Shown here: positions 5,232 through 11,119 of the stretch, one piece after another
How positions within the stretch are numbered: position 1 is the first letter of the stretch
Layout: each line of letters opens with the position of its first letter
Assembly (NCBI RefSeq): GCF_025717675.1
Contig: NZ_JAJIRT010000001.1
Location: 620,001 to 684,000 of the forward strand
Reading direction: 5' to 3'
DNA from: Paucibacter sp. DJ2R-2
Lineage (GTDB): Bacteria > Pseudomonadota > Gammaproteobacteria > Burkholderiales > Burkholderiaceae_C
Length of the DNA stretch: 64,000 bases
Notes under the pieces: generated by a model
What the model was told of the DNA's origin: nothing
Database searches by the model: none
The model's input: the letters and a program-made list of their open reading frames with translations, nothing else
Program-made: the position numbers and the translations under genes

Positions 5232-6959
5232 ATGACGCCCGCAGCAGTCGGCACTTCCGCATCGTCCTGGTCGGCCTTCGCCGAAGCCCAGCCCGCTTTG
5301 CTTGCCGTCACACTGGCGGCCGACTCGCCCGATGAGCCCCGCGACCAGGCCTGGGCCGCCCTGCTGGAGAGCCTGCAGAACGCCCTGCCTGCCGACAGCG
5401 AGGGGATCGAATTCACCCGCCAGACCCGCCGCCTGCTGCTCAGCTTTGCGCGCAGCGATCAGGCCGTCAGCGCGGCCCTGCACATCCAGCGCTTCGAGGC
5501 CCAGCGGCCCAGCCGTTACCGCATCGGCGCCGATCTGCGCCAGGCCGAACAAGGCGTGGCGGCCGCCACCGCCTTGGCCGAGCTGGCGGTGCCCGGTGAG
5601 GTCTTGCTCTCTGAGGCCTTGCGCGACCAGATCGTCGCCGGCCTGGACGCCGAGCTGGAATACGCCGGCGAGCCCGAGTTCCCCGAATTGCAGCGCTCGT
5701 TGCGCCTGTTCCGGCTCTTGCCCAAGCCTGAAGCCGAACAGGGCTGGGGAGACTTTCTGGCCAACAAGCCGACCCTGGTGCTGCTGCCTCTGCGCGTGGC
5801 CGAGGGCCAGCGCTGCGACCCGGTCTATGCCGAGCTGGTCGGCTATGGCCTGAGCCGCGGTCTGGCGCAGAACAAAGCCTGGCACCTGATCTCCAGCCTC
5901 AGCGCCGCCGCCTTCCGCCATCGCCAACCAGCCGCGGCCGAGCTGCAGCAACGCCTGAAGGCCAGCCATGTGCTCTCGGGCGAGGTGCATCAGGAAGGCC
6001 GGCTGCTGCACGCGCAGATCCGCATGGTGGACACGGCCAGCGGCCAGGAACTCTGGGCCCGGACCGTCAGCTTGCCGGTGCATTTGGCGCGCTCGCCCGA
6101 GAACCCTTTTGGCCGCGAGGTGGTCAGCGGCGTCTCGCAAGCGATCTTTGGCGAGGTCGCGCGCGCCGGTCTGCTGCCCGCCCTCGACGACCTGGACAGC
6201 TACACCTTGCTGTTCAAGGCCATGACCCTGGTGCACCGCAGCTGTTCGGCCGAGTTCCTGCAAGCCCGCGAGCTGCTGGACCATCTCGTGCAACGCCACC
6301 CCAAGGCCGGCGAGGCCCAGGCCTGGCTGGCCAAATGGCATGTCATGAATGTCGCGCGCGGACAGAGCCGAGACATCGAGGCCGACACCCGTCTGGCCCA
6401 GCAAGCGGCGCAGCAGGCCCTGCATTGCGAAGGCGACCGCGCCCTGGGTCTGGCGATCGATGGCCTGGTGCATGCTTATCTGCTGGGCGAGCTGGATCAG
6501 GCCGAGGCCCAGCTCAAGGCCGCCATCGCCGAGAACGCCAACGAGGCCTTGGCCTGGCTCTACCTCTCGGCCGTCCATGTCTACCGTGACCAGGGCCAGG
6601 CGGCGGCCGACGCGGCCGGCATGGCCATGCTCTTGTCGCCGCTGGACCCGATGCGCTACTACTTCGATTCCTTCGCCGCCCACGCCCTGCTGGCGGCCGG
6701 GCGGCTCAACGAATCCATCGTGCTGGCCAGTCGCTCGCTGAGCGCCAATCGGCGCCACCTGCCGACTCTGCGCACCCTGGCCATCGCCCGCGCGCTCAAC
6801 GGCCAGCTGGCCCAGGCCAGCGAAGCGGTGCAGGCTCTGCGCGGCCTGGACCCGAACTACTCCCTGCACAGCTTCAACACCCGCTACCCCGGCCGCGGCA
6901 CCGCATTCGCGGCGTGCTGTGCGCTGGCGCTGCAAACCGCGGGCCTGCCGGAGCTGTGA
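5232..6959 (+). CDS. Degenerate class III nucleotide-cyclase-like protein with TolB-like and TPR domains
   Basis: Built like the cyclase/TolB-like/TPR proteins common in proteobacteria. About residues 15-165 resemble the C-terminal half of a class III cyclase homology domain ([20 protein letters not shown], then [15 protein letters not shown] and [10 protein letters not shown]). However, the usual metal-binding Asp motifs (FADxxGFT; GDxxMA) cannot be found, so nucleotide cyclisation is unlikely. About 178-315 match the TolB-N-like region ([51 protein letters not shown]). About 325-560 are helical TPR-type repeats. No signal peptide or membrane helix is seen. ATG 5232 was chosen because earlier in-frame starts run into dapF. 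It is first of three co-directional genes, 69 bp before the haloperoxidase-like gene. Its role, perhaps scaffold or regulator, is inference. Confidence 0.75.
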
Positions 6960-7028
6960 GCGCAAGGCAGCGATCTTCCTGAACCCGGGCGGCGCGGGCC
7001 GGCCCCTTAACGCGAAGGCGGAGCTTTC

Positions 7029-8192
7029 ATGGCGAACTCTGGTTTTTCCTATGCCGGTGTGCAGTCCTATGCCGGGGCGGCCTCGTATGCGGGTGCGGCG
7101 TCCTATGCCGGGGCTGCCTCCTACACAGGCGGCTTCAGCAAGGAGGGTTATGACGGCCAGCCCTACAACCCTTTGCTGGTGCAGGGTCTGGGCGCCAGCC
7201 GCGAGGAGCTGCTGGCCGGCCTGAGCCCGGCCGAGCGCAGCGCCTTGCAAGACCTGCAGCAACGCCTGGGCCCGATGCCGGCCTTCGACCCGGCCGATCA
7301 TCTGATGCGCGCCAACGGCATTGAGGTGCGTGCCGCATTGCTTCACTTCGAACTGCTAACCCAGCTGCGCTTCGGCTCCAAGCCCATAACTGGCCACAGC
7401 GGTGAGCACTGGGCCGAGCTGCAAGCGGCCAGCGGGCCCAAGGGTGCGATGAAGCCCCTGCTGCGCGTCAGCCGGCCCAGCCAGGAGTTCCTGCTGGCCC
7501 ATCTACAAAGGGTGCAGGCCCTGGCGCCGCTGCGCGACAGCCGCACGGCCGAAGTCCTGACCCAGGTAGCGCCGCCGATCGCCTACTTCGCCAGCGTGCT
7601 GAACCTGCAGTCCGGGCGCCATGCCAAGACCACCGAGCTGCTCAAGGTGGCGCTGCAGTTCAGCTATGCCGTCTGCATGCGCTTCAAGCAGGCGCTGGCC
7701 GTGCCGCGACCAAGCGCCTTCACGGCCCAGATCCAACCCATGATCGAGGTGCCCATGCACCCCAGCTTTCCGGCCGGCCATGCGCTCGAGGCCCATGTCA
7801 GCGCCACCCTGCTCGGCGCCCTGGCCGAGGCACCCGGCCGGCCCGATGACAACGCCGTACAGAAGCAGCTGCTGCGACGCCTGGCCACGCGCATCTCGGA
7901 GAACCGCATCGTCGCCGGCGTGCATTTCCCGGTCGACTGCGAAGTCGGCCGCCTGATGGGCGACGCTTTGGCCGCCTACCTGCTGGCCGCCTGCGAGCCG
8001 GAACGCCGCTGGCGTGGCGCCAGCTACGACGGCCTCAAGCTGGACCTGGCCGGCGCCGGCACGCGCGACTTCAGCGCCAAGGGCCAGGCCTTTGAGGACG
8101 AGCACGGGCGCGGCGCGCCGGGCTGGCTGCCCGGCCCGGACCTGCCCCTGCTGCAAAAGCTCTGGAGTCTGGCCCGCGCGGAATGGGTCTGA
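7029..8192 (+). CDS. Vanadium-dependent haloperoxidase / PAP2-fold enzyme with N-terminal SYAGAA repeats
   Basis: A 387-aa protein with the three-part phosphate/vanadate site of the PAP2/vanadium haloperoxidase superfamily: Lys220-x6-Arg227-Pro228, PSFPAGH at 245-251, and Arg293-x5-His299-x3-Asp303 (NRIVAGVHFPVD). Spacings fit the haloperoxidase-type signature; whether it oxidises halide or hydrolyses phosphoester cannot be told from sequence. Residues 7-36 are five hexapeptide units, SYAGVQ then SYAGAA three times then SYTGGF, before the folded part. No signal peptide or membrane helices are evident. A ribosome binding site-like GGCGGAG precedes ATG 7029. The gene is 4 bp upstream of the S8 protease gene and almost certainly co-transcribed with it. 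Confidence 0.82.
   Translation: MANSGFSYAGVQSYAGAASYAGAASYAGAASYTGGFSKEGYDGQPYNPLLVQGLGASREELLAGLSPAERSALQDLQQRLGPMPAFDPADHLMRANGIEVRAALLHFELLTQLRFGSKPITGHSGEHWAELQAASGPKGAMKPLLRVSRPSQEFLLAHLQRVQALAPLRDSRTAEVLTQVAPPIAYFASVLNLQSGRHAKTTELLKVALQFSYAVCMRFKQALAVPRPSAFTAQIQPMIEVPMHPSFPAGHALEAHVSATLLGALAEAPGRPDDNAVQKQLLRRLATRISENRIVAGVHFPVDCEVGRLMGDALAAYLLAACEPERRWRGASYDGLKLDLAGAGTRDFSAKGQAFEDEHGRGAPGWLPGPDLPLLQKLWSLARAEWV
7047..7136 (+). repeat. Five tandem hexapeptide-coding units (SYAGxx)
   Basis: Five consecutive 18-bp units inside the haloperoxidase-like gene encode SYAGVQ, SYAGAA, SYAGAA, SYAGAA, SYTGGF. Synonymous positions differ between units (for example tcctatgccggggcggcc against tcgtatgcgggtgcggcg), so peptide repetition is preserved better than DNA repetition. 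Confidence 0.9.
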
Positions 8193-8196
8193 GGCC

Positions 8197-10269
8197 ATGC
8201 CCTCCGCCGCCCCGCCCACCCCACCCACGCCGCAGCCACGCGACCCCTATCTCAGCTGGGCACAGGACACCGGCTTCAGCGGTCATGCCGCGTTTGCGAA
8301 ACCTGCGGCCAGCAGCCGGTCCGGCGCACCGCAACTGCCCCTGCTCATCAAGCTGCCACTCGAGAGCTCGCCGCAGGCGCTGAGCTGCCGCGCCGGCATT
8401 CAGCTGCCGCCGGCCTATCTGGACCCGGCCCTGAACAGCCGCTTCTGCTGCGCTTGGGTGGAGCGCGCCGCCTTGAATGGATTGAACGCGGCCGTGGCGG
8501 AGGCTGCCCTGTCCCTGCCCTTGCCCGGGCAGTGCCTTGCGGCGGCTGAGCACCGCCTGCCCGAGCGCGAGGACATGGCCGATGCGCCGCTGGTGATCGG
8601 CGTGATCGACAAGCACTGCGCCCTGCTGCACCGAGCCTACCGGCGCGCCTGGCAGGGCGAGGGCGCGGCGCAGTCGCGCCTGGTCGGCCTCTGGGAGCAA
8701 GGCCGGCGCAGCGAAGGCCAGGCGGGCAGCCCCTGGCACTGCCCCGCCGATTTCGGCTATGGCCGCGCCCTGGGGCGGGCCGCAATCGCCGCCCTGCTAC
8801 CGGGCCTGGACAGCGCCGAGGACGAAGCTGCGGCCTACCGGCGCCTGGGCTATCCGCTCGACGCGCAAGGCCAGCTGCAACCGATGCTGCACGGCCACCA
8901 GGTGCTGGACATCGCCGGGGGTCTGGCGCGCGAACAGGCCTTGCCGGCCAGCGCGGTGCCCATGCGGTCCGGCGACCGGGCCGACCCGGTCGAGCAAGCC
9001 GAGTTGCTGTTCGTGGACGTGCCAGAACCTGGCCCGGAGGACAGCAGCGGCGCCGCCGCCGACGCCTACATCCTGGACGGCATCCACTACATCCTGCGCC
9101 GGGCCGGCCCGCGCGCTCGGGTGCTGATCAACATCAGCATCGGTGCCCTGGCTGGCCCGCATGACGGCCACTCGCTGCTGGAAGAGGCCATGGATGAGCT
9201 GCTGCTCAGCCACCCGCAGCTGGCCATCACCGTGGCGGCGGGCAATGCCGCACAAGAGCCATGGCATGCACGTGGCCAGTTAGACCCTCAGATGCAAAAG
9301 GCCGGCTTGCACTGGCACACCATTCCCGGCGATGCCACCGACAGCTTCATGGAGCTGTGGTTCTTCGCCGAGGACCCACAATCCTTCAGCAGCCTGCGCT
9401 TGCGCCTGCAAAGCCCGAGCGGGCAGGTGTTGGAGGCGGGGCTGGGCGAAGATCGCCTGCTGCCCGGCACGCCGGAACGACCGTTGGCCGGTCTGTACTT
9501 TCAGCTCGCCGGCGCAGGCCGCGCCCAGGCCTTGCTGGCGCTCGCGCCCTGCAGCGGCGAGCGAGCCGGCGAATGCGCCGGGGTCTGGCAGTTGGAGATC
9601 AGTCGCAGCAGCGATGACAGCAAACGGCCCTTGCGCCTGGCGGCCTGGCTGCAGCGCGACACGCCAGGGCGCTCGAGCCGGCCTCTGCTGCAATCCTTCA
9701 TCACCGGCTGCAGCGGCGGCCTGAGCCTGGATGGCGGCAGCGCGCTGAGCAGTCTGGCCAGCGGCCGCTACACCGTGGTGGTCGGCGCCGCACGCGCGCT
9801 AGATGGCTCACGCAGTGCCTATTCGCCGAGCGCCGGCATCAGCGCCTATGGTGCCGCCGACGAGAGCGCGGCCATCTATGGCCTGCTCTGCGCCGGCGCC
9901 TTGAGCGGCAGCTGGGCCCGGCTCAGCGGCACCAGTGCGGCAACGCCGGTGGTGGCGCGCGCGCTAGCGCCGCTGCTGCTGGCCAGCCCCATCCCGGCCA
10001 TGAGCAGTCAGGCGCGCAGCATGGAAGGCGGCGGGGGCAGCAACCACAGCCAGGTCGGCCGCCCTGCCGAGCCGGGCCTGTGGCGACTTGCCGCCGGCCT
10101 GCTCGGCGCCAGCTTTGCGGGCGACACAGAGGAAAACAAGGCGCACCGGGTGGTGCTGCCTGCAAGCAGTGGTTCGGCAGAACCGGCACGCCTGGCCAAT
10201 GAACTGGCCCGAGCGCGCCAACAGGCCTCGCTCAGTACAAGGACGGCGCACCCTCGGGGCGGGTCTTGA
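8197..10269 (+). CDS. S8 (subtilisin-like) serine protease
   Basis: A 690-aa subtilase. The catalytic set is visible: Asp138 (VIGVIDKHC), His232 (MLHGHQVLDIAGG), oxyanion Asn350 (VAAGNA) and nucleophile Ser580 (LSGTSAATPVV). Between Asn350 and Ser580 there is an unusually long insertion of about 230 residues with beta-rich segments (MELWFFAEDPQSFSSLRLRL, LYFQLAGAGRAQALLALAPC). There is no signal peptide and no clear propeptide; the first 45 residues are Pro/Ala-rich. ATG 8197 lies 4 bp after the haloperoxidase-like stop; a longer frame from 8014 overlaps that gene and was rejected. The last 38 bp overlap the convergent acyltransferase gene. Substrate and localisation are unknown. Confidence 0.85.
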   Translation: MPSAAPPTPPTPQPRDPYLSWAQDTGFSGHAAFAKPAASSRSGAPQLPLLIKLPLESSPQALSCRAGIQLPPAYLDPALNSRFCCAWVERAALNGLNAAVAEAALSLPLPGQCLAAAEHRLPEREDMADAPLVIGVIDKHCALLHRAYRRAWQGEGAAQSRLVGLWEQGRRSEGQAGSPWHCPADFGYGRALGRAAIAALLPGLDSAEDEAAAYRRLGYPLDAQGQLQPMLHGHQVLDIAGGLAREQALPASAVPMRSGDRADPVEQAELLFVDVPEPGPEDSSGAAADAYILDGIHYILRRAGPRARVLINISIGALAGPHDGHSLLEEAMDELLLSHPQLAITVAAGNAAQEPWHARGQLDPQMQKAGLHWHTIPGDATDSFMELWFFAEDPQSFSSLRLRLQSPSGQVLEAGLGEDRLLPGTPERPLAGLYFQLAGAGRAQALLALAPCSGERAGECAGVWQLEISRSSDDSKRPLRLAAWLQRDTPGRSSRPLLQSFITGCSGGLSLDGGSALSSLASGRYTVVVGAARALDGSRSAYSPSAGISAYGAADESAAIYGLLCAGALSGSWARLSGTSAATPVVARALAPLLLASPIPAMSSQARSMEGGGGSNHSQVGRPAEPGLWRLAAGLLGASFAGDTEENKAHRVVLPASSGSAEPARLANELARARQQASLSTRTAHPRGGS

Positions 10270-11119
10270 AGCGCTTGTGCACCCAGAGGTACTGGGCGGG
10301 GTTCTCGCGGATGCGCGCTTCCAGCCAGGCGTTGAGCACGCGCGCGTCGGCCTCCAGATCGCCACTCGGGTAGCCTGCGGGCGGTGCAAAGGCCTCGATC
10401 AGATAGCCCTGACCGCCCGGCTTCATGGTCACGACCAGGGGCTGCACCGTCATGCCCATGCTGCGCGCGATCTTGGCAGGCGCCAGCAGGGTGCAAGCGG
10501 GCACACCGAAGAAGGGAATGAAGGCCGAGTCCTTGGCGCCGAAGTCCATGTCCGGCGCGTTCAGAAAGGCATAGCCCTCGCGGATCAGGCGCAGCACCGG
10601 GCGGATGCCGTCATGGCGGTCAACAAACGCGGTCTTGCCGAAACGCGCGCGGCCGGCCAGCAGCTGCGCATCGAAGACCGGGTTGCTCTGGCGCGAATAC
10701 ACATCCACGCCGGGGCAGCTCTGATTCAGCATCAGGGCCGGCGCCGACCATTCCAGGCCGGCGAAATGTGGCAGCAACCACATCACCGGCGTTTCGCCGC
10801 GCTGGGCCAACTGGATATCACCCTTGATTTCCATCAGACGCTGCAGGCGCTCGGCCGGCGCAAACCAGAGCAGGCCGCGCTCCAGCACGCTTCGGCCCAT
10901 CCAGGCGAAATGCTCACGCGCCAGCGCCTGGCGCTGGGCGGCATCGAGCTCGGGAAAGCAGAGTTCGAGATTGCGCAAGGCGATGCGCCGGCGCGAACGC
11001 GCCAACACCCACAGCAAGCTCCCCAGGCCACGACCCAGGGCCGCGAGCAGCGACAACGGCAGGAAATGAAGAAGCCAGAGCAGGCCGATCAGGAACTTGG
11101 CACCCCAGGTGGACAGCAT
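10232..11119 (-). CDS. Lipid A biosynthesis acyltransferase, LpxL/HtrB family
   Basis: Inner-membrane lauroyl/myristoyl-type acyltransferase that adds secondary acyl chains to Kdo-lipid A. 295 aa with an N-terminal membrane segment (about 8-30) and the HX4E catalytic dyad His118/Glu123 (LPHFAGLEW). NPAQYLWVHKRFKTRP at the C-terminus is typical of the family. It begins immediately after the stop codon of the second acyltransferase (11120-12022), so the two form an operon. Which is LpxL and which LpxM/LpxP-like cannot be decided here. The 3' end overlaps the convergent protease gene by 38 bp. Confidence 0.9.
   Translation of the reverse strand: MLSTWGAKFLIGLLWLLHFLPLSLLAALGRGLGSLLWVLARSRRRIALRNLELCFPELDAAQRQALAREHFAWMGRSVLERGLLWFAPAERLQRLMEIKGDIQLAQRGETPVMWLLPHFAGLEWSAPALMLNQSCPGVDVYSRQSNPVFDAQLLAGRARFGKTAFVDRHDGIRPVLRLIREGYAFLNAPDMDFGAKDSAFIPFFGVPACTLLAPAKIARSMGMTVQPLVVTMKPGGQGYLIEAFAPPAGYPSGDLEADARVLNAWLEARIRENPAQYLWVHKRFKTRPEGAPSLY

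Follow-up and report, generated by a model that had tools for sequence, protein, structure and literature searches.

What is a short peptide, repeated in tandem, doing at the start of a phosphatase-fold enzyme, and why does the gene for a TPR protein so regularly precede it? The question is raised by three genes, here called g1, g2 and g3, on the + strand of a 64,000-nucleotide stretch of the Paucibacter sp. DJ2R-2 genome (the window). In the list of open reading frames (ORFs), g1 (positions 5232–6959) encodes a 575-residue protein with a cyclase-like domain, a TolB/FlgO-like middle part and a C-terminal TPR superhelix; g2 (7029–8192) encodes a 387-residue PAP2-superfamily enzyme that carries the N-terminal repeat; and g3 (8197–10269) encodes a 690-residue S8 (subtilase) peptidase. 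A first-pass annotation had described three co-directional genes with gaps of 69 and 4 bp, and the ORF coordinates agree (6960–7028 between g1 and g2; 4 bp between g2 and g3). Comparison of the cassette with its relatives suggests, at a probability that we put at roughly 60%, that it would serve signalling inside the cell as a dedicated module whose recognition code is private.

Repeat arrays at the N terminus of g2

The g2 protein of the window starts with MANSGF followed by SYAGVQ-SYAGAA-SYAGAA-SYAGAA-SYTGG, an array of the unit SYAGxx (7047–7133, + strand; residues about 7–35) whose copies differ by synonymous codons. AlphaFold confidence is low over this region, and the array alone is probably disordered, judging from the model. 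Relatives of g2 start with other units, among them GGV, SGGA, GGW, TGT, QGI, ASLWPR, NSF, NK and more. We defined an exact array as a unit of 2–8 residues in at least three copies spanning at least 12 residues. Profile searches yielded 122 strong g2 relatives with non-identical cores, the window included, and 111 of these carry an exact array, as do 5 of 14 weak relatives. The 111 are distinct in the sense that their cores are merely non-identical, several Phaeobacter strains being counted separately. The same criterion picked out 1 of 154 g1 proteins, 1 of 129 g3 proteins and 63 of 4055 other ORFs, a count that takes in reading frames overlapping g2 arrays; a matching array in g1 or g3 was thus not found by it.

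The 116 arrays comprise 59 distinct units, none with cysteine. Units of three residues predominate (78 arrays), followed by those of four (26), six (7), two (3), five (1) and eight (1). Codon differences between adjacent units (2872 comparisons) fell at the third position 1882 times, at the first 63 times and at the second 21 times, a pattern that partly follows from the arrays having been picked for peptide identity. Array DNA is over 95% identical in 8/116; being for the most part far from identical, it argues against recent slippage as the origin of most arrays. A phase-variable simple-repeat locus was rejected, since units are whole codons, third positions are scrambled and copies in Phaeobacter vary by whole units (five to seven of the NSF unit among nine records read). 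The neighbouring ORFs hold 33 other exact arrays, many of them codon-scrambled too and mostly of one Ala-Pro-Lys repeat family. An AAPAKK-repeat protein, likewise codon-scrambled, lies near many Hydrogenophaga-type loci (for example L057, L060 and L071; L and G numbers denote our loci and genomes) and looks like a Lys/Ala-rich stretch in an unrelated gene.

The cassette is kept together in relatives

With g2 as query, strong matches (E below 1e-12) turned up in 21 of 150 genomes of the family, the window's own genome included, and matches of any strength in 47. A g1 relative adjoins g2 at all 20 loci other than the window's own, and a single-sequence search within about 1.5 kb found a g3 relative at 16 of them. 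Among the 111 exact-array relatives, g1 lies upstream on the same strand within 3 kb at 104; it was scored downstream at two (L052 and L092, where extended reading frames overlap), on the opposite strand at two, without a match at two and at a contig end at one. g3 follows within 3 kb at 101 loci, with five at a contig end, four without a match and one on the opposite strand. These 111 loci were picked by g2 similarity, except L163, L164 and L166, which a g1 search had found and where the g1 neighbour is not independent. In these relatives the trio is thus conserved as a unit.

In the genus that we take to be Hydrogenophaga (that of G114), the g2 core is present in 52 of 67 genomes and in 39 of the 44 of high quality. 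Fifty loci were read there under a looser array criterion (at least 2.5 copies and nine residues), giving an array at 50/50, a g3 match at 50/50 and g1 at 49/50. At L190, L191, L193 and L194 an array-bearing g2 and g1 are present and an S8 match is lacking in both a profile search and tblastn with a Rhizobium S8 protein, which suggests that the core of the system is g1 plus g2. Eight PAP2 proteins that are more distantly related (L153–L160) lack an array, and about 1.5 kb of flank on each side contains no g1 match.

The repeat unit covaries with the C terminus of g1

Loci that are closely related and differ in their units point to a putative partner of the array. L073 (Hydrogenophaga flava, unit SAGV) and its relative L081 (SGGY) have g2 cores that are 98.1% identical, and their DNA contains a single divergent block that starts in the 3′ part of g1 and ends just past the array. 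No divergent block separates L080 from L082, both of which have SGGY. Over 82 loci, in the bin of highest upstream identity, the last 90 residues of g1 have a mean identity of 0.773 in same-unit pairs (60 pairs, many of them Rhizobiales with GGA) against 0.581 in different-unit pairs (79 pairs), at almost equal upstream g1 identities of 0.874 and 0.869. For the 17 loci of the largest related cluster, identity of this segment is 0.761 in same-unit pairs (14) and 0.558 in the other 122 pairs, a difference reached in 0/5000 shuffles.

The best-sampled genus, presumably Hydrogenophaga, allowed a regression over 49 loci with 22 units, with upstream g1 identity and g2 core identity as covariates. 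These loci come from 48 genomes (of 53 places, G596, G597 and G619 were left out and L212 lacks g1; G621 gives two loci), and they overlap the named loci of the comparisons above, so that they are not an independent sample. When g1 is divided into 30-residue windows, same-unit pairs show an excess identity of 0.197, 0.152 and 0.125 in the final three (0/500 shuffles each), of 0.038 in the next one upstream (4/500) and of at most 0.013 further upstream. For pairs with g2 core identity of at least 0.92, the last 90 residues are 0.92 identical with the same unit (n=6) and 0.564 with different units (n=16), against 0.952 and 0.904 for upstream g1. Past the array in g2, where about 15 poorly aligned columns directly after it were left out, the excess is at most 0.023 in the first seven 15-column windows and at most 0.031 in all twelve (9/500 shuffles). 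Nor does g3 have a clear association with the unit (22 named loci, 21 windows; best 0.088, 15/500 shuffles), and we do not claim that g3 reads it.

The last 90 residues of g1 (6687–6956, + strand, in the window), which comprise a pair of TPRs and a tail, are thus the proposed reader, on the strength of covariation in relatives and not of the window protein itself. Among 34 closely related loci the positions that covary most strongly with the unit are TPR2-6, TPR1-9 and TPR1-12, followed by a tail residue, TPR1-17 and TPR2-9. By the numbering that we assume, TPR positions 9 and 12 line the concave groove and position 6 falls outside the usual list, which makes three of the top six (TPR1-9, TPR1-12 and TPR2-9) groove positions. 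Mean association stands at 0.203 over the groove positions of helix A so assigned and at 0.192 over the tail; the rest of helix A and helix B each average 0.084.

A receptor that would read a repeat tag

Of the module as a whole, pairing and covariation are what we observe. We propose that g1 would act as the receptor by which the repeat tag of g2 is read, and consider it likely, from the covarying residues, that its C-terminal TPR groove binds the array. TPR grooves bind extended peptides, and cyclase and winged-helix output modules normally work as dimers. Since the array offers many identical sites, it could bring two or more g1 molecules together and so switch their N-terminal output module, a multivalent activation that we put forward tentatively. 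The output controlled would be a class III cyclase in most cases, a winged helix in the Rhodobacterales scanned and, in the window, a cyclase that is catalytically degenerate. Sensor or effector function would fall to the phosphatase-like domain of g2. By cleaving g2 or its partner, the S8 peptidase would switch the complex or reset it, and of such a reset we are rather doubtful. A bolder version, on which we see even odds, is that of a swappable barcode: unit and g1 TPR pair would be replaced together between species, and the multivalent tag would switch a cyclase or DNA-binding output. As part of that version, and with the scales just as evenly balanced, natural variation would lay out a readable code of repeat units against TPR groove residues.

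Several observations weigh against this reading. The tail, at 0.192, counts as much as the groove. Outside the best-sampled genus (59 loci, 34 units) the same-unit excess is 0.028 over all pairs and 0.055 once GGA–GGA pairs are removed (13 same-unit pairs), weaker than within it, and the effect is equally visible in the preceding 90 residues of g1. At four Rhodobacterales loci the unit changes among GGF, GGL and SGL without a matching change in the g1 C terminus. Regression and shuffles remove the effects of shared ancestry only in part. Eleven of the 122 strong g2 relatives lack an exact array, several of these being imperfect by eye and two cut by a contig end. Finally, the cyclase residues are missing from g1 of the window, which makes a cyclic nucleotide an improbable output of that protein. 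The pair L037 (GGA) and L111 (GGV) repeats the pattern of the genus, with upstream g1 0.90 identical and the last 90 residues 0.44.

The covariation would also arise without contact if one stretch of DNA, from the 3′ end of g1 through the intergenic gap to the array, recombined as a whole. The divergent block does run from the end of g1 to the array, the effect tends to grow towards the array, and outside the best-sampled genus it extends beyond the last 90 residues. Linkage by itself nevertheless fits poorly with a block that is one-sided (0.023 in the first 15 columns compared downstream of the array, 44/500 shuffles), with the steep drop at 90 residues into g1 and with the lack of a smooth decay within them (0.043 at −75 to −60 vs 0.197 at −90 to −75). 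Moreover, the covarying positions include TPR groove positions. We regard linkage alone as improbable.

A second alternative treats the array as a multi-copy propeptide that g3 would cut in the manner of kexin, the S8 peptidase being its analogue, with the freed oligopeptides sensed by the TPRs of g1 as in RRNPP signalling. Such a scheme would account for an S8 peptidase that adjoins a repeat-bearing protein and a TPR protein, and the covariation of sensor and peptide resembles the coevolution of ComR and ComS (PMC8605241). Against it, no signal peptide is evident, as judged without a predictor, and an exporter gene is absent from the cassette; g3 has no clear unit-linked region by the comparison given above; and arrays with g1 occur at the four loci that lack an S8 match. 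Release of free peptides thus seems unlikely to us.

Third, g2 could be an effector that is costly when free, with g1 restraining it through the array, and changes of unit would then keep pairs private in the style of toxin and immunity proteins. The near one-to-one pairing of g1 and g2 and the rapid change of units are in keeping with this. So is the finding that genomes with two cassettes have different units in each (7/7 looked at, one second array being imperfect; G066, whose two cassettes lack an exact array, was left out), except that chance predicts likewise: by a rough estimate 7/7 is close to expectation, and we do not use it as support. Signal-output modules such as the cyclase and winged helix of g1 would be unusual for a simple inhibitor, and the cassette has no PADLOC match and the g2 core none in a phage collection. 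We accordingly give this explanation little credence. An ordinary haloperoxidase or phosphatase operon with a neutral low-complexity tail, for which the PAP2 fold and intact active site could be cited, is very improbable, since exact periodicity in 111/122 despite scrambled codons is hard to square with neutral drift and the array is absent from the eight distant PAP2 proteins without a g1 match in their 1.5-kb flanks.

Should the receptor–tag reading be true, the cassette would be a widespread signalling module of Proteobacteria in which identical short repeats are read by a co-evolving TPR pair, a recognition principle not found in the open-access literature searched, pointing to intracellular lock-and-key signalling of a new kind. 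It would explain the regular but ever-changing repeats on one enzyme family and offer, for an orphan enzyme of phosphatase fold and the accompanying peptidase, a role that can be tested. It would also provide a natural data set for how TPR grooves recognize short peptides and a source of mutually orthogonal peptide tags.

The phosphatase-fold core of g2

The core of g2 (7323–8189, + strand; residues 99–387, from alignment and structure comparison) matches Pfam PAP2 above cut-off (E 1.5e-11). In 59 aligned sequences (L020, which has no array, was left out of the alignment) K220, R227, P228, P248, G250, H251, R293, H299 and D303 are invariant, and PAGH replaces the usual PSGH. The first-pass annotation had assigned g2 a vanadium-haloperoxidase fold. 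Its PAP2-superfamily core stands; among solved structures, those nearest to the g2 model are class A acid phosphatases, which fill ranks 1–13. The superfamily fold and the K, R, H, R, H vanadate site, residues that we take to be of the same kind as in vanadium haloperoxidases, are present in g2 and shared with phosphatases, and so do not discriminate. On the model, then, g2 folds most like class A acid phosphatases, and any haloperoxidase activity is putative; as a default identity, haloperoxidase is not favoured over acid phosphatase by structure comparison. The N terminus of g2 has no hydrophobic stretch that we could see, residues 1–45 being modelled at low confidence, and no signal peptide was evident in the cassette proteins, judged from sequence and the g2 model only and without a predictor. 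A phage-borne module was set aside, the g2 core having no match in the phage collection.

The cyclase-like domain and TPR superhelix of g1

The cyclase-like and TPR parts of g1 that the annotation had named were recovered in the AlphaFold model and by structure comparison, as a degenerate class III nucleotidyl cyclase fold (5277–5729, + strand; residues 16–166) and a TPR superhelix (6192–6956, + strand; residues 321–575). The superhelix also matches Pfam TPR_19, below its cut-off (E 1.9e-4). The middle part is what we presume to be TolB-like, and its FlgO matches occur in relatives only. We aligned the window protein with the first 60 of 69 divergent g1 sequences. Both metal-binding Asp residues are kept in 57/61, and 56 of those also keep the Asn and Arg; in the window the four positions, D, D, N and R in 56/61, are T27, R66, A110 and A114. 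With all four replaced, the window protein falls outside the class III cyclases by its catalytic residues, and its cyclase output is probably non-catalytic or lost. In g1 of two Rhodobacterales proteins scanned, an OmpR-type winged helix replaces the cyclase.

This loss, together with the g2 repeat, had been overlooked when the trio was first read as a shared pathway of enzyme and protease with g1 as scaffold or regulator. That reading holds as far as the conserved unit goes and is otherwise incomplete.

The g3 peptidase and neighbouring genes

That g3 is an S8 protease was confirmed by a Pfam Peptidase_S8 match above cut-off (E 2.2e-6) and by the catalytic residues D138, H232 and S580 with the oxyanion residue N350; the triad Asp, His and Ser is kept in 92, 94 and 91 of 94 g3 sequences. 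A convergent acyltransferase ORF (10232–11119) overlaps the end of g3 by 38 bp. From reading by eye, we take the − strand flanking genes to be dapF and lpxL-type acyltransferases. A cluster of Crp/FNR-like genes, an identity that rests on two representatives (L033, downstream; L054, upstream), occurs near the cassette at 47 of 100 loci (L031–L130); 70 of its 73 ORFs lie downstream of g3 on the opposite strand and three upstream. We count this neighbour among the points in favour of the signalling reading. A second gene with weak PAS and LuxR matches often stands behind the Crp/FNR-like gene. No Crp-like gene was evident beside the cassette of the window from reading the flanking ORFs.

In Rhizobium, a cassette with NK repeats (L186 and L196, both the one R. 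johnstonii plasmid pRL12, and L188) is followed by genes for a TIGR04267 aKG-HExxH hydroxylase and ThiF, and L196 additionally has an uncharacterized 73-residue protein beside them. These neighbours suggest a link of the cassette to peptide modification. A precursor of ribosomally synthesized and post-translationally modified peptides was not adopted, as the hydroxylase and ThiF were seen only there among the loci searched by tblastn and not beside the window copy. PADLOC models (2023 library) gave no cassette match at E 0.01 or better, and a known anti-phage defence system was rejected on that ground.

Hosts of the cassette

Hosts include Hydrogenophaga, Polaromonas, Rubrivivax, Bradyrhizobium, Methylobacterium, Microvirga and Rhodobacterales, one relative set behind this listing being the best 80 of at least 583 relatives; at least 23 Bradyrhizobium-type loci were left out of the analysis. 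The cassette is also found on plasmids of Phaeobacter and Rhizobium. In the window's own genus, g1 is present in 5 of 18 genomes, the window genome included, and the other four have their own g2 with the units GGIGRN, AGVGPF, GGVGPS and an imperfect GGVGPx. On a Phaeobacter plasmid (L177) the cassette genes look truncated by annotation, and on a Parasedimentitalea plasmid (L185) they look frame-shifted, which suggests decay of the module in some lineages.

Relation to known systems

The component families are known. The annotation knew of no described system with this combination, and we likewise found no account of the cassette or of such arrays in the open-access literature, most subscription journals lying outside that coverage. 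Class III adenylate cyclases fused to TolB-like and TPR parts have the same domain order as g1; their catalytic residues are kept in 56/61 aligned sequences, whereas the window copy is degenerate and the scanned Rhodobacterales copies have a winged helix. Class A nonspecific acid phosphatases (7f17; PhoN, 2akc) differ from g2, which has an array, no evident signal peptide and a g1 gene nearly always adjacent, and vanadium-dependent haloperoxidases (1qi9, 4cit) have the superfamily fold in common with it.

In bacterial amyloid signalling (BASS) a short variable N-terminal motif is carried on one protein beside a partner gene, and g2 likewise has a short variable N-terminal motif next to a partner gene. 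The cassette differs in that no comparable exact array recurs in g1 (1/154) or g3 (1/129), single motifs not having been searched, and that the motif covaries with a TPR region instead.

By analogy, the nearest known principle is that of RRNPP signalling. In its regulators (Rap, NprR, PlcR, PrgX and ComR) a TPR domain is coupled to an output domain, as in g1. Peptide and TPR pocket reportedly coevolve in Rap–Phr. The same is described for ComR–ComS (PMC8605241). A separate propeptide gene would not fit into the 69-bp and 4-bp gaps of the cassette, and small ORFs in the flanks were not searched; we therefore do not file it as an RRNPP system. In the cassette, by contrast, an enzyme carries the peptide as a fused tandem array without an evident export signal, a class III cyclase is among the output modules, and the hosts found are Proteobacteria.

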